Below are positions 22,674-32,830 of a stretch of 64,000 nucleotides of DNA, piece by piece (positions within the stretch are counted from its first letter, which is position 1; each line of letters begins with the position of its first letter). A program made the translations under genes and the position numbers. Source of the DNA: Streptomyces albireticuli (GTDB lineage Bacteria; Actinomycetota; Actinomycetes; Streptomycetales; Streptomycetaceae); contig NZ_CP021744.1 of assembly GCF_002192455.1 (NCBI RefSeq), forward strand, positions 5,241,501-5,305,500. The letters are read 5' to 3'. Below the pieces are notes generated by a model. It saw only the letters and a list, made by a program, of their open reading frames with translations, made no database searches and was not told where the DNA came from.

Positions 22674-23186
22674 CTACTCGCAGCCCGACTCGATCTTCCG
22701 GAAATTCGAGTAGTGATCGCCCGTGTACCAGACAGCGTGCGCGCCCTCGTCCCGCACGATCCGTTCCGCGTCCCGGTGCTGCCCGGGCCTTCGCGGATTG
22801 ACGTCGTACTCCCGGTAGGCCCCGTCCGTCGGCAGGTCGCGGCTGAGGTTGCGGTAGACGTTGCTGCCGCGGATGACCAGGGGACGGGACATCGGCACCT
22901 GGTAGTCCTGGGCGCGGGGGGCCTTCGGCCAGCCCAGGCCCTTCCAGATGGCGCACGCCTTCTTCACCTGGGCCGGGAACCTCTCCACCGGCCACGGCGG
23001 GTCGTAGACGTCCGCCGGCCGGGCGGCGGCCCCCGGTGCCGGGGAGACGGCGCTCGCCGGTGACGGTGCGGGAATTCCCGTCGCCGTCAGGAGGGGGATT
23101 CCCGCCACCGATACGAAGAAGGAGGCGCGGGCCACGGGTTTCGATCTCAGGAAAGCTTTCACGTATGGACAACAGCCAGTGAGCAT
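22674..23186 (-). CDS. Secreted guanyl-specific ribonuclease (RNase Sa/N1 family)
   Basis: 170 residues. The N-terminal signal peptide runs about 9-45 (KAFLRSKPVARASFFVSVAG, then an Ala-Pro-rich cleavage zone), so a GTG start at 23162 is also possible. The mature C-terminal domain has the RNase Sa active site in order: Glu126 in YREYD, Arg142 in AERIVRD and His158 in TGDHYSNF. These enzymes cleave RNA after guanosine outside the cell. Unlike the toxin tip at 17.6-17.9 kb it has no adjacent barstar. It is likely a nutritional or defensive exoenzyme. Confidence 0.9.
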   Translation of the reverse strand: MLTGCCPYVKAFLRSKPVARASFFVSVAGIPLLTATGIPAPSPASAVSPAPGAAARPADVYDPPWPVERFPAQVKKACAIWKGLGWPKAPRAQDYQVPMSRPLVIRGSNVYRNLSRDLPTDGAYREYDVNPRRPGQHRDAERIVRDEGAHAVWYTGDHYSNFRKIESGCE

Positions 23187-23240: not shown

Positions 23241-23519
23241 CTAACCGGGCAGCGACATCAGCGCGACCGACGCCACGATCATGATCAGGCCGAACGGAAT
23301 CATCACCGCCCCCAGGAACCGCAGATATCCCGCCGTCCCGAAAAGCGGCACGGACACCGGCCCCAGGCGGCCGCTCGCCTGATGCATGAGTTCGAGCTTC
23401 CTGTACGTCCGCTCCACCCGGCGGGTCGTCACACCCCGCACGTTGAAGGCGATCACGACGCCGAACGCCACCGCGGCCACGCCGAACAGGAGGAAGACCA
23501 TCTCGATCAAGGAAGGCAT
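23241..23519 (-). CDS. Small membrane protein with two transmembrane segments
   Basis: 92 residues. Hydrophobic segments lie at about 5-28 (MVFLLFGVAAVAFGVVIAF) and 66-90 (FLGAVMIPFGLIMIVASVAL), with a basic loop (RRVERTYRKLELMHQASGR) between them. The ATG overlaps the stop of the DUF1266 gene (ATGA), so the two are coupled. The family is not recognised. Confidence 0.75.
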   Translation of the reverse strand: MPSLIEMVFLLFGVAAVAFGVVIAFNVRGVTTRRVERTYRKLELMHQASGRLGPVSVPLFGTAGYLRFLGAVMIPFGLIMIVASVALMSLPG

Positions 23520-24724
23520 CAGCGGATCCTAGCCCCTGGGTTCCCGCCCTGCGCCTCGTCCCACCCCACCGTCCGCCAAGGGCTCCCCGGGTCCGTCGTC
23601 AGGAGCCGGTGCGGTTCCAGCACCGCTGTGTACCACTCCCCGAACTCCTCCGTGTCGAAGCGGAGTACGCGCCCCAGGGCGTACCCCGCCGAGAAGTCCT
23701 CCCAGGAGTCGTACGCCTCGCGGCACGCCCCGCCGGCGCGGAGGATCGCGCCCTCGGCCGCCTCCGCCGGGCAGAGTCTGGCGCTCAGCCCCCAGCGGGC
23801 GAAGCCGACCGCGCGGCCGTAGTCGTAGCCGACCGCGCTGCGGACGTAGCCGTCGGGCGCGAGGAGGCCGTCCGCGCGGAAGCGGGCCTCGTAGCGGAGG
23901 ATGCGGCCGATGACGTCCTGGACGGCGGCGTCCGCCTCCGGGATCTCCAGCTCGTCGAGGGCGGCGGCGCAGGCGCGGCGCCAGGCGTCCGCGCCTAGAG
24001 TGGCGGCGTCCCGGGAGAGCTCGCGCCGGACCCGGAGCGCGAGTTCGGGTTCCGGAGGGCTGTTGCGGGCGGCCAGCAGGGCGTTCATCTGGAGCTGCCA
24101 CTCCTGGGGCGTCCCGGTTCCCCAGATGTCCCGGAGCAGGTGGACGTCCCGCTCGTAGTCGCGGTAGACGTCACCGATCTCGTTCCACAGCACGCCGTTG
24201 GTCACCGACAGATGAGCCCCGCAGGCCAGAGCGTGGGCGAGCGGTCCCGACCGCGGGCCCGTCAGCTTGGTGAGCAGGGTCGTGGGACGGTCCGTGCCCG
24301 CCGCCCGTGCCGCCTTCTTCCAGCGGCGGCGGTCCCACGGGCGGGCCCGCAGCCGCATCCCGGACGGGGAGCCCGGATTCACGTAGAGGGAGAAGCGGGC
24401 GTCCGGCCAGTGCTCGGCCAGGTCCTCCAGCGTCCGGCACGAGGCCACCGACCCCGCGTGGCGGGGCAGCCGTTCCCCGGGGGTGCGGACGGCGACGCAC
24501 CAGTTGCCCAGCTCGTCCTCCGTGGTCCGCCAGGACCGGGCGCCGCCCGCGTCGACCTGGTCCTTCGCCAGGTACAGGTACAGATCGGTCTCCGCGAGGA
24601 CGCGCAGATAGCCCTTCTCGTCACCGGCGAGCGCGGCGTCCCGCAGTCGTCGCTCGACCTCGGTCGGGGGCTGCCAGGGCCGGCGGGCCGCCAGCGCGCG
24701 TGTTCTCGGGGATGTCGATGTCAC
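23519..24724 (-). CDS. DUF1266 domain protein with SseB-like N-terminal region
   Basis: 401 residues, GTG start at 24724. The C-terminal half (about 170-375) matches DUF1266 (YbeR/YbeU type), with the aromatic YDYGRAVGFARWGLSA and DSWEDFSAGYALGRVLRFD motifs. The N-terminal ~130 residues resemble the SseB N-terminal domain (GDEKGYLRVLAETDLYLYL, then FSLYVNPGSPSG). Both domains occur in proteins of unknown cytoplasmic function and around toxin or secretion loci. The gene is translationally coupled to the small membrane protein downstream. Confidence 0.75.
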   Translation of the reverse strand: MTSTSPRTRALAARRPWQPPTEVERRLRDAALAGDEKGYLRVLAETDLYLYLAKDQVDAGGARSWRTTEDELGNWCVAVRTPGERLPRHAGSVASCRTLEDLAEHWPDARFSLYVNPGSPSGMRLRARPWDRRRWKKAARAAGTDRPTTLLTKLTGPRSGPLAHALACGAHLSVTNGVLWNEIGDVYRDYERDVHLLRDIWGTGTPQEWQLQMNALLAARNSPPEPELALRVRRELSRDAATLGADAWRRACAAALDELEIPEADAAVQDVIGRILRYEARFRADGLLAPDGYVRSAVGYDYGRAVGFARWGLSARLCPAEAAEGAILRAGGACREAYDSWEDFSAGYALGRVLRFDTEEFGEWYTAVLEPHRLLTTDPGSPWRTVGWDEAQGGNPGARIR

Positions 24725-24820: not shown

Positions 24821-24983
24821 CGATCGTTCGCCTGTGCGGAGTCGGCCGCGCGACCGTCCCTTGCGCGGAGTCGGCCGAACGACCGTCCCTTGCGCGAAGC
24901 CGGTCGAACGACCGTCCCTTGCGCGAGGCCGGCCGCACGACCGTTCCTTACGCGAGGCCGGCCGTACGCCCCTCCCTCAGCCG
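24821..24983. repeat. 29-bp tandem repeat (minisatellite), about five copies
   Basis: Consecutive units (24821-24850, 24851-24879, 24880-24908, 24909-24937, 24938-24966, plus a partial) share the core cgaccgtcccttgcgcg followed by a cggccg-containing block. There are no spacers, so it is not a CRISPR. The period is not a multiple of three, so it is not coding. It occupies the gap between the oxidase stop and the DUF1266 start and degenerates towards both ends. Confidence 0.9.
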
Positions 24984-27466
24984 CACGCCCTCCCGTTCCT
25001 GTCGGGATCCAGCCCCAGCGGATCGTCCTTCCCGTTGACCTTCAGATCCTTGTAGCCGTGCGAGGTCAGCCACGCGCAACGCCCCGCCGTCGTCGACGGC
25101 ACCGACTTCGGGAACTTCGTCGGCACGCACACGTTCTCCGTGCCGTAGTGGCGGTCGCAGCCGGCGATCTGGGTGTCGACCGTCTTCGACGTGTGCTTCT
25201 CCTGCGGCTTCTTGGCCGCCGAAGCCGGCATCTTGGACGCGAAGTCGTGGACCATCGGCGCGGCCGCCGGAGCCATGGCCTCCGGGCCGCCCAGGCGGAC
25301 CCAGGTGGCCACCGACGGGACACCGGCCGCGTCGACCGCGTACAGCATGTACCAGCCGGGCGGCGCCAGGTTGGGGTTGCTGGTGACGTTGAGGTCGATG
25401 GTGGTGCCGTCCGCGCCGACCGTCATCGGCAGGTCGACGAAGCGCTGGTTGGGGTCGGAGGAGTGGGTCACGGCCGCCGGGCGGATCAGCTCGGCCTTGA
25501 CGATCGGCCGGTCCACCGTGACGCGCTGCGTGCTCGCGTACTGCCACTTGTCCGTGGCCACGGACGTGATCTGCGGCCGCGCGCCCTTGTAGAGGTACGG
25601 CGGGGTGTAGATCGAGACGTGGTCGTCGAACGAGCCGTTGCCGGGGTTGTCGCCGACCGCCATCACCCTGCCGTCCGGCAGCAGGAACGCGGACGAGTGG
25701 TACGTGCGCGGGATCGGGTCCGTGGCCAGGCCGGACTGGAAGGTGTTCGCCGCCGGGTTGAACATCGACGCCTCGAACACCGGATCCGCCCGGTCGTGCA
25801 GCCCGCCCCCGGTCTCCAGCACCTTGCCGTCGGGCATCAGCACCGCCGACACGTACATCTTGCCCTGCGCGCCCGTCTGCGGCTTCCTCCCCTGGCCCTG
25901 GTCCACGGTGCCCTGGGGGATCAGCGGCCCCGGCGCATACCGCGGAGTGGGCTTCTTGAGGTCGATGATGTCGGTGAAGCGGTTGGCCTCGGGGTTGGTG
26001 TTGACGTTACCGCCGCCCATGGTCAGCACGCGCTGGTCCTGCGCCGGCGGCAGCAGCACGCTCGCCGACTGGTCGCGGTGGTCCTTGTCCTGGAGGCCGG
26101 GGACGTCCGTGACGGTGTTCCGGTCGTAGTCGTAGACCGACGCGCCCGTGCCCGGGGTGCCGTTGCCGAAGACATGGCTGCCGGAGTAGAAGAGCCGCCC
26201 GTCCTGCATGAGGATCATGGACGGGTAGAGGCCCCAGTACGACCAGGTCTGGTTCACCTGGTTCATCGGCAGCCACTTCTGCTGCGCCTGGCTGAACCGC
26301 TCGGCCGTCACGCTGCCCGTCGAGTCCTCGCGCAGGCCGCCGAAGGTGATCACGTCGCCGTTGCCGAGGAGTGTGGCGGAGGGGTACCAGTGGCCGTCGT
26401 TGAGGTCGTTGGTCCTGGTGTACGTCTCGCTCGACGGGTCGAAGAGGTAGCTGTCCTTGAAGCCCTCGTAGCCGTGGCTGCCGTCCGCCGCCGGGTACGC
26501 CTTGTTGCCGCTCATGATCAGCACGCGGCCGTCGGACAACTGGACATGGCCCGCGCAGAACATGTCGACGGGGGTCGGGATCGTCTTCATCCCGCCCGTC
26601 TTCGGGTCGTACACCGCCGAGGTGAAGGTGCCCGCCTTGAAGAGCTCGGGGTCGTTGCCGGAGCCCGCGACGAGCAGCACCTTGCCGTTGTGGAGGACGA
26701 CCGAGTGCATGCTGCGCACCGGGTTCTTGAACGGCATCACCGCCCAACTGCCCTTGGCGCACGCCTCGCCCGCCGTGCAGACGTCGCCGGGCGCCGGCTG
26801 CGTGGCGTCCTCCATGGCGAAGTCGTCGGTGGTGACCGTGCCCGTGCCGTAGACCGAGACGCCCCAGGTGATCTGGTCCGTGCCGGGCGGCACGACGGGC
26901 GTACGGACCTCCGCGCGGGTGTAGCCGGAGCTGACCGGCAGCGTCTTGAGGTCCGTCCAGTACTGCCAGCCGTCCTTCACGTCGTGCCGGAAGACCGTGA
27001 CGGAAGCGTCCGGAGTGGTGCTCTTATACCAGAGCGACAGGTCGTACTGATGGGACGACGTCACATTGGGCGCGCAGGAGGTGTCCTCCAGCATCAGCGC
27101 CTTCCGGTCACCGCTCACCCGCCGGGTCAGGGTGACGGACATGGCCCTCTTCCCGCTGTGCGCGTCGCCCGTCGTCGCGTACGTGAAGTCGTTGTCGCCC
27201 CAGCCGGACTTCTGCCAGCAGGTCGGCTCCCCGTTCGACCGTAAAGCCTCGAAACCGGGGTTGACGACGAGATTCGAACCGGCCTCGGCCGGGACCGGCG
27301 CGGACAGCAGCAGGCCGAAGGAGGCGGAGGAGGCGAGGAGCGTCGCCGCGGCGAGCCGGGCCCTCCTGGCCCGCCGGCCGCGGGCCGTCCGCCGCCCGCC
27401 GGTGAGCGGTGGGGGCGGTGGCGGTGAGGGCGGCTCGGCGGGCGCCGAGGGTGTCAGTGGTGGCAT
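24977..27466 (-). CDS. Secreted copper-radical oxidase (galactose/glyoxal oxidase type) with excalibur-like tail
   Basis: 829 residues, with a GAAGGGA ribosome-binding site. A basic N-terminus and hydrophobic stretch (about 36-62) form a signal peptide. Residues 64-220 look like a carbohydrate-binding jelly-roll (NLVVNPGFEA). Kelch blades run from about 240 to 620, with a C-terminal early-set/DUF1929 domain to about 725. All galactose-oxidase copper/radical residues have counterparts: Cys304 (DMFC) for the Cys-Tyr crosslink, Tyr361 (HWYP), Tyr589-His590 (RTYH) and His668 (VTH). The tail (about 765-829) has a Cys-rich DPLGLDPDRNGRACG excalibur-type end. It closes an operon of three glycosyltransferases, like GlxA next to CslA, but the protein is longer and the partners differ. 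Confidence 0.87.
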   Translation of the reverse strand: MPPLTPSAPAEPPSPPPPPPLTGGRRTARGRRARRARLAAATLLASSASFGLLLSAPVPAEAGSNLVVNPGFEALRSNGEPTCWQKSGWGDNDFTYATTGDAHSGKRAMSVTLTRRVSGDRKALMLEDTSCAPNVTSSHQYDLSLWYKSTTPDASVTVFRHDVKDGWQYWTDLKTLPVSSGYTRAEVRTPVVPPGTDQITWGVSVYGTGTVTTDDFAMEDATQPAPGDVCTAGEACAKGSWAVMPFKNPVRSMHSVVLHNGKVLLVAGSGNDPELFKAGTFTSAVYDPKTGGMKTIPTPVDMFCAGHVQLSDGRVLIMSGNKAYPAADGSHGYEGFKDSYLFDPSSETYTRTNDLNDGHWYPSATLLGNGDVITFGGLREDSTGSVTAERFSQAQQKWLPMNQVNQTWSYWGLYPSMILMQDGRLFYSGSHVFGNGTPGTGASVYDYDRNTVTDVPGLQDKDHRDQSASVLLPPAQDQRVLTMGGGNVNTNPEANRFTDIIDLKKPTPRYAPGPLIPQGTVDQGQGRKPQTGAQGKMYVSAVLMPDGKVLETGGGLHDRADPVFEASMFNPAANTFQSGLATDPIPRTYHSSAFLLPDGRVMAVGDNPGNGSFDDHVSIYTPPYLYKGARPQITSVATDKWQYASTQRVTVDRPIVKAELIRPAAVTHSSDPNQRFVDLPMTVGADGTTIDLNVTSNPNLAPPGWYMLYAVDAAGVPSVATWVRLGGPEAMAPAAAPMVHDFASKMPASAAKKPQEKHTSKTVDTQIAGCDRHYGTENVCVPTKFPKSVPSTTAGRCAWLTSHGYKDLKVNGKDDPLGLDPDRNGRACG

Positions 27467-29040
27467 GTACGGGTCCCTTCCCCACGGTCCCCGGTGCCGG
27501 CGCCCCGGCGCCGTACGGTCCCGTGGCGGTGCTTGCGGTGCTTGTTGTTCCCGGCGCCGGCGCCGCTCTTGCCGGGCGGCGCCGTCTTGCTCTTACGGGG
27601 CAGGTAGACGAGGGCCTCCGTGGCCGCGAAGCGCAGCACGAAGGTGGTGAGCAGAGCGATCACCGTGGCGGTCAGCACCCCGAGGCGGAGGGAGCCCACG
27701 AGGAAGGCGATCAGGGGGATGCGCAGCAGCAGATCGGCGTTGGCCAGCAGCGCGAAGCGGCCGACCCGGTCCGCCCAGTGGCGGTGCCGCCGCCGGTCGC
27801 GGAACAGCAGCACCTCGATGAGCAGGAAGTTCCACAGCACGCCGAACTGGTTGGCGACGATCTCCGCCGGGAGGTAGTGCAGCCCGGCGGTGGTCAGCAG
27901 ATGGAGCCCCAGGAGGTTCGGCAGGAAGCCGGTGAGGCCGATGAGACCGAAGAGGAGCATCCGGGCCACGGAGGACGCCGTGCGCAGCGTGGTCAGGTGG
28001 CCGAGGAAGCGCAGGCCCTCGCGGGCCGTGGACTTCGACTCGCCCGCGAAGCGGTCCTGGAACGCGAACGGCAGCTCGGTGACGGCCGCAGGCCGGCAGC
28101 GTACGGCCAGCTCCAGCAGGACCTTGTAGCCCAGCGGCCGGAGCGCGTCGGCGTCTGCCGCCGCGACGGCCTCGCGGCGGATCGCGAAGAAGCCGCTCAT
28201 CGGGTCGCTGACGCCCTTCAGCAGGCGCGGGAAGGCGCCCTTGGCCAGCCAGGTCGCGGCGCGCGAGACCGCGACGCGGTAGCCGCCCGCCAGCCCGGCG
28301 CGGCTGCCACCGGGGCGGTAGCGGCTGGCGACGACCAGATCGGCGCCCTCCCGGAGGCCCGCCTCGACCAGCTCGGGGACGAGCGCGGGCGGGTGCTGGA
28401 GGTCGGCGTCCATCACCACGAACCAGCCGGGCTCCGGCGCGCCCCCGCGCAGCCCGCCCCGCATGCCCTCGACGACCGCGCCGCCGAGCCCGCCGACGGG
28501 CTCCCGGCGGTGGATGACGGAGACGGGGTACGGGCACGAGCGCGCCGCCTCCCGGACGGCCTCCACGGTGTCGTCCGTGCTGTCGTCGACGAAGAGGACG
28601 TCGCAGGGGAAGCGGGAGGGCAGTGCCTCGGTGAGGCGCCGGAGCAGCTCGCGGACGTTCCCCGACTCGTTGAAGGTCGGCACGATGACGGTGACCGTGG
28701 CGGCCCGGGGGACGGCGGCGGAGGGCGGCGCGGGCGTGGAGGAGGGGGAGGGGGCGGGGAGCGCGGCCGGAAGGCCGGGGCCCGGTGCGAATCCCGAATC
28801 GTCGGGGAAGCCGGACCCCGCGGCGAATCCTGAGCCGTCCGGGAAACCGGCGCCCGCGGCGAATCCGGAACCGTCCGGGAAGCCGGATCCCGGGGCGGAA
28901 CCGGAATCCGGCGGGAAGCCCGTGCCGGCCGGGTGGCACGCCTCCGTAGGCATCCTCGTGCCTGCCGGCCCTTCGGTCGCGCCCGGCACCCCCGCCTCCG
29001 GCGGTCCCACGCGCCGGCCCCGGGGACGGGAGAGCGTCAT
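27454..29040 (-). CDS. Family 2 glycosyltransferase fused to a GtrA-like membrane domain
   Basis: 528 residues, ATG 29040 overlapping the upstream gene's TGA (ATGA). Residues 1-110 are low-complexity, with 12-residue repeats of GSGFPDGSGFAA type. GT2 domain: VIVPTFNESGNVRELL (118-133), VDDSTDD (151-157) and DAD metal site (211-213), of dolichol/polyprenyl-phosphate mannosyltransferase type. The C-terminal GtrA domain (about 365-490) has four hydrophobic segments. Such enzymes load a sugar onto polyprenyl phosphate and help flip it, supplying GT39-type transferases like the next gene. Its 3' end overlaps the oxidase start by 13 nt. Confidence 0.9.
   Translation of the reverse strand: MTLSRPRGRRVGPPEAGVPGATEGPAGTRMPTEACHPAGTGFPPDSGSAPGSGFPDGSGFAAGAGFPDGSGFAAGSGFPDDSGFAPGPGLPAALPAPSPSSTPAPPSAAVPRAATVTVIVPTFNESGNVRELLRRLTEALPSRFPCDVLFVDDSTDDTVEAVREAARSCPYPVSVIHRREPVGGLGGAVVEGMRGGLRGGAPEPGWFVVMDADLQHPPALVPELVEAGLREGADLVVASRYRPGGSRAGLAGGYRVAVSRAATWLAKGAFPRLLKGVSDPMSGFFAIRREAVAAADADALRPLGYKVLLELAVRCRPAAVTELPFAFQDRFAGESKSTAREGLRFLGHLTTLRTASSVARMLLFGLIGLTGFLPNLLGLHLLTTAGLHYLPAEIVANQFGVLWNFLLIEVLLFRDRRRHRHWADRVGRFALLANADLLLRIPLIAFLVGSLRLGVLTATVIALLTTFVLRFAATEALVYLPRKSKTAPPGKSGAGAGNNKHRKHRHGTVRRRGAGTGDRGEGTRTCHH
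28789..28896 (-). repeat. Three 36-bp coding repeats in the glycosyltransferase gene
   Basis: Units 28789-28824, 28825-28860 and 28861-28896, with a partial fourth, encode in-frame Gly-Phe-Pro-Asp-Gly-Ser dodecapeptides in the disordered N-terminus of the GT2-GtrA protein. Confidence 0.85.
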
Positions 29041-30677
29041 CGCGCCGCCCCCGTCCCCGTGATCCGGCGGATCTCGATGCGGTCCGCGCCGCGCCCGAAG
29101 ACCGCGACGGTCCGGGAGTGCTCCAGCGCCCCCTGGACGACCGGCAGATGGGCCGCGTCGCGCCGCACCGTGGGCGAGGCGACCACGTAGTCCAGGTCGC
29201 GCCAGCCGCCGGGCAGGCTGCGGGCGACGGCCGGGTCCAGGTCGGCCTTGTAGAACCAGATGGCGCCCGTCCCCGGGGTGTAGCCGGCGTGCACGAGGTC
29301 GAGCCAGATCGCGTCGTCGGCGAGGACGCGCGTACGGGCCGGGTCCGCGACCCTGTCCCGGTCCCGCAGCCAGGACGTCGCGGCGCGGTACGGGGCGTTG
29401 ACGTCGGTGGTGACGGCGGCGCGGTCGCCGTCGTACCAGCGCGGCACCGTGTACGCGGCCGCCGCCCCGGTGAGCAGGACGACCGCGGTCCAGCGCGCGG
29501 GGTACCAGCGGCGCCGGAAGCCCGGGCGGGTGCGCAGCGTCTTCCCGGTGACGGCCGCGGCGAGCCCGGCCAGGGAGAGGGCCAGGAAGGGCAGCGCCTG
29601 GATGATGTACATCGCCGGCAGATAGCCGGAGGGGCGCAGCGCGACGACCGCGAGGATCAGCGCGGCGATCGCGGGACCGGCCATCGCCCGGGCCGTCACG
29701 GAGCGGCGGGTGAGGGCCATGAGCGCGAGCGCGGCGGCCAGCCCGCCGACCGGCAGCACCCGGTCGTAGTACAGCCAGGCGCTCAGCACTTGGTGGGCGG
29801 CTGAGCCGGGGTCGAGGAGGAAGCCCGAGCCGGCCCGGCTCATCTGGTACGTGACGCCGTCGACGAGCGAGACATGGCCGGGGCCGGGGAACAGCTCGTG
29901 GTTGAGGAGCGCGAGCAGCGGATAGGACAGGCCGATCAGCACGCAGACGGTCACCGCGCCCGTCACCGCGAACTTGCGGGTGTCGCGGTGGGTGTGGCGC
30001 CACATCGTCACCAGCAGCGCCGGCAGGACGACCAGCATGGTCTCCTTCGACAGCACGGCCACGGCGGCCGCGACGCCGGCCCCGAAGTGGTGCCACAGGT
30101 GCCGCCGCGGGGACGCGGCCAGGCAGAAGGCCAGCAGCGTCCACATCACGGCGATGTTGTCGAGGAAGATCTCCCGCTGGAGGACGACCGACAGCGGGGA
30201 CAGCCCGAACAGGGCCGTGCCGAGTCCCGCCGCCCAGAGCGGCAGCCCGAGCCGCCGCCCCAGCGCGTACACCAGCACCGCGCTCACCGCCGTCACCACC
30301 AGCATCGCGGCGCGCATGGGGGCGACCGTGAGGAGGTCGGGCGCGAGGACCGAGGGGAGCCAGGTGAGGGCGGCGATCTGGAGCCAGCCCAGGGGCGGGT
30401 GGTCGTACCAATAGGTGTAGTGGGCCAGGCCCTTGCCCTGCTGGACGGCCCACGCCTGGGCGAGGTACGTGCCCTCGTCGTCGCTGAGGTTGGGGTAGCC
30501 GGTGATGTTCCAGCCCTGGACCAGCAGGATCGCGATCAGCAGCAGCCCGCAGAGCGCCAGGTCGGGGCGGGAGCGGCGCAGCCGCAGCACGGGCCGGAGC
30601 GGGACCGGGGGGCCGGCCGCGGCCGGGCGGTAGAGGGTGTCGGGCCGGGCCTGGGCGGTGGGGAGGGTCGCGGTCAC
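29037..30677 (-). CDS. ArnT/PMT-like (GT39) membrane glycosyltransferase
   Basis: 546 residues from GTG 30677, which overlaps the upstream TGA (GTGA). The first extracytoplasmic loop carries NLSDDEGTYLAQAWAVQ and YWYDHPPLGW, the acidic-plus-DHPP pattern of phospholipid-carrier-dependent glycosyltransferases. About eleven hydrophobic helices follow, with a periplasmic C-terminal domain of about 120 residues (DVNAPYRAATSWLRDRD, LADDAIWLDLVHAG). It would transfer a sugar from polyprenyl phosphate to an acceptor outside the membrane. It acts downstream of the GT2-GtrA enzyme in the same operon. Confidence 0.88.
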   Translation of the reverse strand: MTATLPTAQARPDTLYRPAAAGPPVPLRPVLRLRRSRPDLALCGLLLIAILLVQGWNITGYPNLSDDEGTYLAQAWAVQQGKGLAHYTYWYDHPPLGWLQIAALTWLPSVLAPDLLTVAPMRAAMLVVTAVSAVLVYALGRRLGLPLWAAGLGTALFGLSPLSVVLQREIFLDNIAVMWTLLAFCLAASPRRHLWHHFGAGVAAAVAVLSKETMLVVLPALLVTMWRHTHRDTRKFAVTGAVTVCVLIGLSYPLLALLNHELFPGPGHVSLVDGVTYQMSRAGSGFLLDPGSAAHQVLSAWLYYDRVLPVGGLAAALALMALTRRSVTARAMAGPAIAALILAVVALRPSGYLPAMYIIQALPFLALSLAGLAAAVTGKTLRTRPGFRRRWYPARWTAVVLLTGAAAAYTVPRWYDGDRAAVTTDVNAPYRAATSWLRDRDRVADPARTRVLADDAIWLDLVHAGYTPGTGAIWFYKADLDPAVARSLPGGWRDLDYVVASPTVRRDAAHLPVVQGALEHSRTVAVFGRGADRIEIRRITGTGAAR

Positions 30678-31930
30678 GACGTGACGTCCTCTCGGGTGAG
30701 GTGCGCGCCGACGTGCTGGGTGAGCTCCCACTCGTTGCGGCCCCGCTGCTCCCGCCAGACCGCGCGGACAGCGGCCCCGGCGAGAAGGAACTGGTAGAAC
30801 GGGCCGCCGGCGATGAGCTTGAGGTAGTGGACCAGGCGCACCCGGAACCCGTACTGCTTGCCGAAGTCGTGCAGACCGACGACCTCGAAGACGAAGGTGA
30901 TGAAGGCCGTCACGGCCGGCAGGAACGTCAGCACGGCGATGTGGACGGGGACGTGCAGCAGGAGCGTCACCAGGACGTTGAGCGGGATGACGAGCCCGGT
31001 GAAGGCCTGGAAGAACGGGGTCATCAGGGTGTAGCGGGCGAGCATCCGCTGTCCCACGGTCGGCAGCCGGTGCCAGTCGCGCTTGCGGTAGACCTGGATG
31101 AAGCCCTGGTTCCAGCGGGTGCGCTGCTTGAGCAGGCTCATCAGGGAGCCGGGCGTCTCCTCGCGGGTCACCATCTCCGCGTCGTACGCGACGACGACGC
31201 GCTTGCCCCTGCTGGACAGCCGTACGCCCAGGTCGCAGTCCTCGGCCAGGCAGTCGGGGTCCCAGCCGCCGGCCTCGCGCAGCACGTCGGTGCGGACGAA
31301 GACGGTGTTGCCGCCGAGCGGGATGAAGCCCTTCGCGGCGTGCAGGTGCAGCCGGCTGCGGAACCAGAAGAAGTACTCCAGGCAGTTGCGCAGGCTGTAC
31401 CAGCTGGAGTGGAAGTTGATCAGCTGGACGCCGCCCTGCACCACGTCGGCGCCGGTGCTGCGGAAGGCGTGGTCGACGTGGGTGAGCAGGGCCGGGTGCA
31501 CCTGGTCCTCGGCGTCGAAGACCCCGACGACGTCGCCCAGGCAGTGCGGGAGGGCGGTGTTCAGGGCCTTCGGCTTGTTCTTCGCGGCGTGCGTGTCGGT
31601 GATCACCCGCACCCGGTTGGGCGCGGAGGCCGCGACGCGCTCGGCGACCTCGGCCGTGCCCGGGTCGTCGTGGCCGACGACGACGAGGATCTCGAAGCGG
31701 GCGTGGGTGGAGCGCAGCAGGCGCCTGACGGTGTGTTCGAGTACGGCCTGCTCGTGGCGGGCCGGCACCAGCAGCGAGAAGGACAGCGTGCCGTGGCCGC
31801 TCGGGCGCTCGAAGCGGGTGGCCGCGAGCGTCTCGGGCGTCCGCCAGGCGTGCATCTGCCACCAGAGCGTGAAGGCGGCCATCCAGAAGAGCGTCAGCGA
31901 AACGACGCAGACCAATACGGACGTGAGCAA
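30674..31930 (-). CDS. Processive family 2 glycosyltransferase (cellulose/hyaluronan synthase-like)
   Basis: 418 residues, TTG start at 31930 with an AGGGGGG ribosome-binding site. One N-terminal transmembrane segment (3-25) is followed by a GT2 domain with LLVPARHEQAVLEHTV, the DAED metal site, the EDCDLG acceptor motif and QRTRWNQGF, the Q-x-x-R-W signature of processive synthases. Three or four transmembrane segments close the protein (about 290-390). It has no PilZ domain. It probably polymerises and exports a polysaccharide. It is the first gene of a four-gene overlapping operon ending in a copper-radical oxidase that could modify the polymer. Confidence 0.9.
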   Translation of the reverse strand: MLTSVLVCVVSLTLFWMAAFTLWWQMHAWRTPETLAATRFERPSGHGTLSFSLLVPARHEQAVLEHTVRRLLRSTHARFEILVVVGHDDPGTAEVAERVAASAPNRVRVITDTHAAKNKPKALNTALPHCLGDVVGVFDAEDQVHPALLTHVDHAFRSTGADVVQGGVQLINFHSSWYSLRNCLEYFFWFRSRLHLHAAKGFIPLGGNTVFVRTDVLREAGGWDPDCLAEDCDLGVRLSSRGKRVVVAYDAEMVTREETPGSLMSLLKQRTRWNQGFIQVYRKRDWHRLPTVGQRMLARYTLMTPFFQAFTGLVIPLNVLVTLLLHVPVHIAVLTFLPAVTAFITFVFEVVGLHDFGKQYGFRVRLVHYLKLIAGGPFYQFLLAGAAVRAVWREQRGRNEWELTQHVGAHLTREDVTS

Positions 31931-32284
31931 AGAAGTCCCCCCTAGGACCCACGGATCAGGACGCGCGACAGGGCGCGAGACGGCGCGCTACGGCAGTGCG
32001 AAGCCGGCTGTCGGTCGCACGGCCGTCGAGCCCCCCGGCCGCCGCTGTGTGGCATGCCCCCTCACGCGACTCCCCAGTGCGCGTGTGTCTCCCCTTCGCT
32101 GGAGAGAGTAAGGGGGGAAGATGAAACGCAGGTGCTTAATTGATAAATCCCGTGTTTCCGAACTTACGGTCGAACAGGGGCAGTTGGGTGGTGAAAACGC
32201 CATAGGGGCGCGCCCCGGGGGCGCCCGCGGGCCTGGCCGGGGCCGCCCTTCCGTGCCGGTCCGGGCGGTGGGAAGCTGTCCTCT
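31931..32284. promoter_or_regulatory. 354-bp divergent region upstream of the polysaccharide operon
   Basis: No gene fits here. The segment 32110-32170 is strikingly A+T-rich for this genome (ttaattgataaatc) and is the likely promoter zone, giving the glycosyltransferase operon a 5' leader of about 200 nt on the minus strand. The leader includes purine/pyrimidine blocks and possible short stems, but no riboswitch consensus I can name. Confidence 0.45.
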
Positions 32285-32830
32285 ATGGGTGCATTGAGGC
32301 GCCTACGGGCCCGACAGGTGCTGTACGCCGCGGGGGTGGCCGCCCTCGTGGGCCCGGCCGCCCTGTCGCTCGTCGGCTGCGAACCGGCGGAAGCGGGCGG
32401 TCTCAACTCGGTGGCCGTCGCCGTCACCACCGACAAACGGGCCACCGGCCGGCTCCAGCACGACGGCTATCCGGTGCAGTGGCTGTCCTGCATCGGCACG
32501 GCCGAGGCGGGCGGCTCCACGGACAAGGGCTCGCCGCGCCCGGTGTCGGCCGTGGGGGTCGACTGCGAGGGCCGGACGGGCGGCGGCCAGAAGATCATCG
32601 TCTACGGCCGGGTCACGGGGATCCACGGCGAGACCTGTGTGCGGGGGCGGCTGACGGGCAAGGTGGACGGGAAGACGGCGTTCACGGCGGGGGTGCTGGG
32701 GGAGTGCGAGGGGAGTGGGAGCGGGTCGGGGAGGCCGGATGTCCAGCCGGAGAAGCCGGGTGGGAAGCCGGGTGGGCAGGGGCCGTCGCCGGACTGTACG
32801 GATGAGCACGGGAAGCCGAAGGGGAAGTAG
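32285..32830 (+). CDS. Secreted or lipoprotein-like protein of unknown function
   Basis: 181 residues. The N-terminal basic region and hydrophobic core (about 12-31) end in LSLVGCEPAE, which resembles a lipobox with Cys at about 32. The body (40-145) is Gly/Thr-rich and has paired Cys (LSCIG, VDCEG, ETCVRG, GECEG), suggesting a beta-rich exported domain with disulphides. The tail is a charged Gly-Pro-Lys linker. The family is not recognised. Confidence 0.7.
   Translation: MGALRRLRARQVLYAAGVAALVGPAALSLVGCEPAEAGGLNSVAVAVTTDKRATGRLQHDGYPVQWLSCIGTAEAGGSTDKGSPRPVSAVGVDCEGRTGGGQKIIVYGRVTGIHGETCVRGRLTGKVDGKTAFTAGVLGECEGSGSGSGRPDVQPEKPGGKPGGQGPSPDCTDEHGKPKGK

Follow-up and report, generated by a model that had tools for sequence, protein, structure and literature searches.

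Gene content of the operon

We analysed a 64,000-nucleotide (nt) stretch of the Streptomyces albireticuli genome (contig NZ_CP021744.1, positions 5,241,501 to 5,305,500), referred to below as the window, which carries on its minus strand an operon joining three glycosyltransferase genes to a gene for a secreted copper-radical oxidase. The window is part of an 8.14 Mb Streptomyces-like chromosome, and an ortholog scan placed the operon locus nearest to the loci of S. albireticuli and S. eurocidicus. The first gene (30674–31930) encodes a GT2 glycosyltransferase of 418 amino acids with a TTG start (PF13641, 4.6e-44), and the second (29037–30677) a GT39/PMT-like GT-C glycosyltransferase of 546 amino acids with a GTG start (PF13231 and PF02366, both above cut-off). 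The third (27454–29040; 528 amino acids, ATG start) encodes a DPMS-like GT2 domain (PF00535) with a C-terminal GtrA membrane domain (PF04138), called the GtrA protein below. The fourth (24977–27466) encodes the AA5-like oxidase, an 829-residue protein matching PF09118, PF07250 and Kelch. Its CBM_4_9-like front domain (26777–27286, residues ~61–230) and its tail domain (24980–25168, residues ~767–829) each contain four invariant cysteines.

An earlier interpretation drawn from the DNA letters alone (the sequence-only reading) had described a four-gene operon in which all junctions overlap. That description was accurate: the order is GT2, GT39, GT2-GtrA, oxidase, with overlaps of 4, 4 and 13 nt. 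The GTG start of the GT39 gene overlaps the GT2 stop, and the ATG of the GtrA gene overlaps the GT39 stop, by 4 nt each.

Conservation and linkage

Scanning 84,980 species genomes with the oxidase, we obtained 337 relatives, and our ortholog-locus counts refer to the best 80 of these 337. All 80 belong to Streptomycetaceae, bar one contig labelled only 'Actinobacteria bacterium'. The four genes stood in order on one strand in 63/80 loci, only the GtrA gene was absent in 10/80, and the remaining 7/80 were cut by contig ends. The GT2-GT39 junction was −4 nt in 71/73 orthologous loci and the GT39-GtrA junction was −4 nt in 54/66; because these junctions are kept across loci, the gene arrangement goes beyond chance. 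The expectation that the genes form a coherent module was thus supported by linkage conserved in the 63 complete loci and the 10 lacking only GtrA. Values of dN/dS for the GT2, GT39 and oxidase genes lay between 0.13 and 0.45, lineages without GtrA included.

Presence and absence across genomes gave a similar picture. Oxidase orthologs (61–85% identity) were found in 11 of 31 relatives' genomes, the window's own counted; GT2 and GT39 orthologs occurred in the same 11 genomes plus one other (G023), and 19/31 had none of the three genes. The oxidase was therefore present in 11/12 genomes with GT2 and GT39 versus 0/19 without (Fisher test by hand, ~1.4e-7, kinship between genomes ignored). In sampled Streptomyces loci, the oxidase was always accompanied by GT2 and GT39 wherever the contig was long enough to judge. 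The operon is present in about half of the sampled Streptomyces genomes (10/19 and, in a second sample, 4/8). Carriers include S. glaucescens and S. noursei. One genome (G016) has an internal rearrangement, with GtrA-GT2 divergent from GT39-oxidase, and all four genes are still adjacent.

Most orthologous operons adjoin the PEPCK gene. The window and verticillate relatives carry the operon elsewhere, with other neighbours, so it would have moved as a unit or been gained twice. No functional partners were found in the Streptomyces neighbourhood, where the neighbours were PEPCK, a DUF255 thioredoxin, HlyIII, an MFS protein and Mut7-C. The intergenic region 5' of the operon (31931–32284) separates it from a divergent gene at 32285 and contains a G-rich, ribosome-site-like stretch just upstream of the GT2 TTG; the GT2 start codon was TTG or GTG in the orthologs inspected. 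A consensus scan of this region yielded no sigma-70-like promoter, and a promoter and terminator scan at the operon gave nothing exceeding chance. Directly after the oxidase stop lies a 29-nt tandem repeat of 4.9 copies (24836–24977). Just 3' of the operon is a gene for a DUF1266 protein (23519–24724), not near the operon in ten other mapped genomes, and beyond it a Barnase-like ribonuclease gene (22674–23186; PF00545, 2.4e-11).

A GlxA-like copper-radical oxidase

The sequence-only reading had assigned the copper and radical residues of the oxidase correctly. Cys304, Tyr361, Tyr589-His590 and His668 align to those of GlxA, the oxidase paired with the cellulose synthase-like protein CslA, while Trp360 aligns to GlxA Trp288; all six residues were invariant in 81/81 sequences. 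A structural comparison covering residues 233–727 of the oxidase model matched GlxA best (4unm; Z 42.5, rmsd 2.3, 465 residues aligned), with galactose oxidases at Z ~37. Against the GlxA equivalog model NF052501 the oxidase scored 390.4 bits, below the curated cut-off of 800. The GlxA beta-barrel PF21110 was absent from the window oxidase in Pfam, with the corresponding insertion missing in the alignment, and was present in the GlxA of the same genome (1.3e-42). In the tree, the clade of the window oxidase was the sister group of the clade formed by the CslA-paired oxidases (100/99 for each). Members of a distant actinobacterial family (f20) occurred in both clades, from which we infer that the two oxidase systems split before these families, unless genes were transferred.

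The terminal domains had been described as carbohydrate-binding-like and excalibur-like. That description stood for some orthologs, with a CBM_4_9 match to the front in 9/27 (best E 3e-5) and an excalibur match to the tail in 4/27 (best E 0.006); neither model scored in the window protein alone. In G016 (L041:9906–12254), the oxidase linker contains a stretch rich in Met and His, DDMSGMDGMDGMAHGSAHRHH, that may bind copper.

The substrate turned over by GlxA is glycolaldehyde and not galactose (PMC4736821), and since the Trp-Tyr site of the operon oxidase is GlxA-like, its chemistry should not be presumed to be of the galactose type. CslA also depends on GlxA for its activity (PMC11022532), so the operon oxidase could have a structural role. 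It could accordingly be mainly a partner or activator of the GT2, or an oxidiser of small aldehydes such as glycolaldehyde that feeds a peroxidase with H2O2, the polymer itself not being oxidised. Both published GlxA properties and the Trp360-Tyr361 arrangement fit such a role. However, GT2-GT39 relatives without a linked oxidase exist in four genomes, and the CBM-like front suggests polymer binding; we regard this explanation as possible but doubtful.

Related clusters link the operon to SCO1 and GH8

The same four families are clustered in another order in three f20 genomes (G047, G067 and G085), namely GtrA, oxidase, a tail-like protein and SCO1, then GT2 and GT39. A further set seems to be present in G047, at the ends of contigs C188 and C189. 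In a genome of the same order and another family (G029), GT2-GT39-GtrA-oxidase is followed by a gene for a separate small secreted tail-domain protein, whose ATG overlaps the oxidase stop, and then by a SCO1/SenC gene that overlaps the tail-protein gene in turn. The tail domain is thus a separate protein in the G029 and f20 loci, which suggests that it is a partner of the oxidase, separate in some lineages and fused to it in Streptomyces.

A SCO1/SenC gene adjoins the oxidase in G029 and the three f20 genomes. SCO1 genes were found in 8/8 genomes tested, with 2–4 copies where one sits in the cluster. GlxA of S. lividans needs Sco for its maturation (PMC4736821). A dedicated SCO1 gene beside the oxidase supports a real copper dependence of the enzyme. 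The CslA-GlxA-like loci of f20 (L175:9102–12504 and L178:5308–10870) also have their own SCO1/SenC gene.

Two genomes with no linked oxidase (G107 and G138) each have a single GH8 gene, which lies no more than 5 kb from GT2-GT39. BcsZ, encoded in cellulose loci, belongs to the GH8 family (PMC9693552). In G107 (L168:4125–5911), a sortase-like gene lies directly 3' of the GH8 gene.

A GT2 with the QxxRW motif of polymerising enzymes

The GT2 motifs DD88-89, DAED139-142, ED230-231 and QRTRW269-273 were invariant in 74/74 orthologs, and the best PDB relative of the GT2 profile was BcsA (5ej1, 1.5e-11). Given this match, the GH8 linkage and the CBM_4_9-like oxidase front, a beta-1,4-glucan-like polymer is our best guess for the backbone product.

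The GT2 could instead make a glycolipid or short oligosaccharide, then modified by the GT39 protein and the oxidase in the manner of HpnI- or ArnT-like lipid modification. In NCBIfam, the GT2 matched the HpnI and XrtP-associated GT2 models partially, all far under cut-off, and ArnT was the top fold match of GT39. Set against these are the QxxRW motif, invariant in all 74 orthologs, BcsA as the best PDB relative and the linkage to GH8, and we consider a glycolipid product improbable.

A putative lipid-linked sugar donor

The GT39 protein scored above cut-off for PF13231 (33.7 bits vs 26.1) and PF02366 (35.2 vs 22.7), and its acidic residues DDE66-68, in the first outer loop, were invariant among orthologs. 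A sequence search of the PDB gave no match for it. By predicted fold it was closest to ArnT (5f15), then to oligosaccharyltransferases and ALG enzymes, then to Pmt. The GtrA protein profile matched the Pyrococcus furiosus DPMS (5mlz) at 1.7e-72, and D211 and D213, the DxD of its GT2 domain, were conserved among orthologs. Within its N-terminus, a 36-nt tandem repeat (28787–28920) encodes GFPDGSGFAAG-like repeats that are absent from the aligned orthologs.

Polyprenyl-phosphate-mannose synthase is general in Streptomyces, so mannose would be the likeliest sugar to be carried. Repeated loss of the GtrA gene suggests that its product is nonessential or is replaced by another polyprenyl-phosphate sugar synthase. 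In lineages without it, GT39 remains under purifying selection (dN/dS 0.27–0.45), similar to carriers. The window's own genome has a second polyprenyl-phosphate sugar synthase, 37% identical to the GtrA protein. The simplest reading is that the donor in the GtrA-less lineages would come from another synthase.

The same genes might serve protein O-glycosylation. Streptomyces have a polyprenyl-phosphate-mannose/PMT pathway, and here the GtrA protein would make polyprenyl-phosphate-mannose, GT39 would transfer the sugar to secreted proteins, perhaps including the oxidase or its linker, the GT2 would extend it and the oxidase modify it. The membership of GT39 in the PMT_2 and PMT Pfam families and the strong DPMS match of the GtrA protein are consistent with such a route. 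Its predicted fold, however, matches ArnT ahead of Pmt1 and Pmt4, which leaves the acceptor undecided, while the QxxRW motif of polymerising enzymes in the GT2 and the GH8 and CBM_4_9 links point towards a polymer. We consider protein O-glycosylation unlikely.

A proposed surface-glycan assembly module

We propose that the operon is a surface-glycan assembly module, in which the GT2 makes a polymer, a sugar from polyprenyl phosphate decorates it and the oxidase acts on it; we put the probability of this reading at about one half, its chemistry being inferred. The GT2 would polymerise and extrude a beta-linked glycan, for which a beta-1,4-glucan or a related polymer is the likeliest candidate. 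The DPMS-like enzyme, judging by its family, would load one hexose, probably mannose, onto polyprenyl phosphate, and the GtrA domain would help the lipid-borne sugar to cross the membrane. Outside the cell, GT39 would move this sugar onto the nascent glycan, adding side groups or a cap. The exported oxidase, anchored to the glycan by its CBM_4_9-like front, would receive copper from a Sco protein and form a Cys304-Tyr361 cofactor. It could then oxidise the glycan, or a small product of it, at an alcohol or aldehyde group, releasing H2O2, and, as in CslA-GlxA, the synthase may also depend on it for activity. A more specific version, which would add another type of oxidase-coupled glycan system to those of Gram-positive bacteria, is a chemically crosslinked sheath that carrier Streptomyces would lay down alongside CslA cellulose, made of a decorated beta-glucan-like polymer whose lipid-derived sugars are turned into aldehydes by a Sco-loaded oxidase riding on the polymer; this we offer tentatively, as a conjecture that may well fail.

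Several results weigh against the assembly module. The GT2 shares only 21% identity with the CslA of its own genome, has no PilZ match in Pfam and ends after its C-terminal membrane part, and the FxVTxK gating loop was not seen in it (the CslA has FVVTPK); cellulose chemistry therefore cannot be transferred to it. The structure model of GT39 is of moderate confidence (pLDDT 73). No GH8 gene was found in the window's own genome. The GtrA-GT2 gene has been lost repeatedly (10/73 informative loci), and four genomes (G023, G107, G138 and G103) have GT2-GT39 with no oxidase linked to it. Thus, GT2 and GT39 form the constant core; the GtrA protein and the oxidase are optional additions, not obligate partners. 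The sequence-only reading had named separation of the genes in relatives as grounds for its refutation, and this was borne out in part: the GtrA and oxidase genes can separate from the others, whereas GT2 and GT39 stay together. In G023 (L138:1646–10503), GT2-GT39 is followed by another PMT_2-type transferase and is divergent from a gene for a large ASH/lectin-like protein.

Copper-dependent development in Streptomyces is currently explained mainly via one oxidase, GlxA. With a second, separately inherited oxidase that has its own glycosyltransferases in about half of the sampled Streptomyces, phenotypes linked to copper, Sco and H2O2 may be divided between two glycan systems. The operon is a defined, deletable locus to which unassigned surface glycans might be traced, and the pairing of related oxidases with unrelated synthases is useful for asking what the oxidase really does.

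Comparison with known systems

Among the closest known systems is CslA-GlxA (SCO2836–SCO2837), a true copy of which lies elsewhere in the same genome, CslA beside GlxA (L043:8110–12011); the operon oxidase is not next to cslA. The proposal that the operon is distinct from this locus was therefore upheld. Both systems place a membrane GT2 with a QxxRW motif next to a secreted AA5-like oxidase, with the GlxA-type Cys, Trp-Tyr, Tyr-His and His active site and a Sco gene linked in relatives. Unlike CslA, the operon GT2 has neither FxVTxK nor a PilZ match at its 21% identity. The operon oxidase is 37–41% identical to its counterpart, lacks the PF21110 barrel and has in addition a CBM-like front and a Cys-rich tail, and the operon has two further glycosyltransferases.

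Liman et al. (PMC3543389) reported a single oxidase gene, SCO2837, for S. coelicolor. Among 28 Streptomyces genomes they reported more than one oxidase in only three, S. griseus, S. albus and S. roseosporus, which have extra cslA-glxA copies. That precedent would allow the operon to be merely a duplicated cslA-glxA locus. However, its oxidase belongs to the sister clade of GlxA, is without PF21110 and scores 390 bits where the GlxA equivalog demands 800, and its GT2 is not CslA. One genome (G018) has two GlxA-type oxidases (L140 and L141) besides the operon, i.e. three copper-radical oxidases; that GlxA-type pair would fit the extra copies of Liman et al. better, the operon being different. 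Duplication is thus extremely improbable, and we rejected it on the oxidase tree, domain content and GT2 comparison. Three genomes of the same genus (G003, G008 and G013) gave no GlxA-like match at E 0.001, two of the three being rated 100% complete.

Bacterial cellulose synthase loci share with the operon a BcsA-like GT2 (its best PDB match) and, in two relatives, a GH8 gene beside GT2-GT39. In contrast to them, the operon has no BcsB that we could see and no PilZ match, and it carries GT39, DPMS-GtrA and, in many loci, the oxidase. The DPMS/GtrA and GT-C systems typified by P. furiosus DPMS and ArnT resemble it in the DPMS profile match with GtrA, the GT-C fold and the conserved acidic residues, but in the operon a fused GT2-GtrA stands beside a polymer-type GT2 and an oxidase. 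With the AA5 oxidases (fungal galactose and glyoxal oxidases and the bacterial galactose oxidase 9g43) the operon oxidase shares the Kelch propeller, the early-set domain and all copper and radical residues, whereas it is nearer to GlxA than to the galactose oxidases (Z 42.5 vs ~37) and has other accessory domains. The sequence-only reading had suspected an undescribed system, and we found no published description of the operon in a literature search limited to open-access papers, so that its absence there is weak evidence. The operon is an apparently undescribed, conserved glycan module and a new variation on the synthase-oxidase theme.

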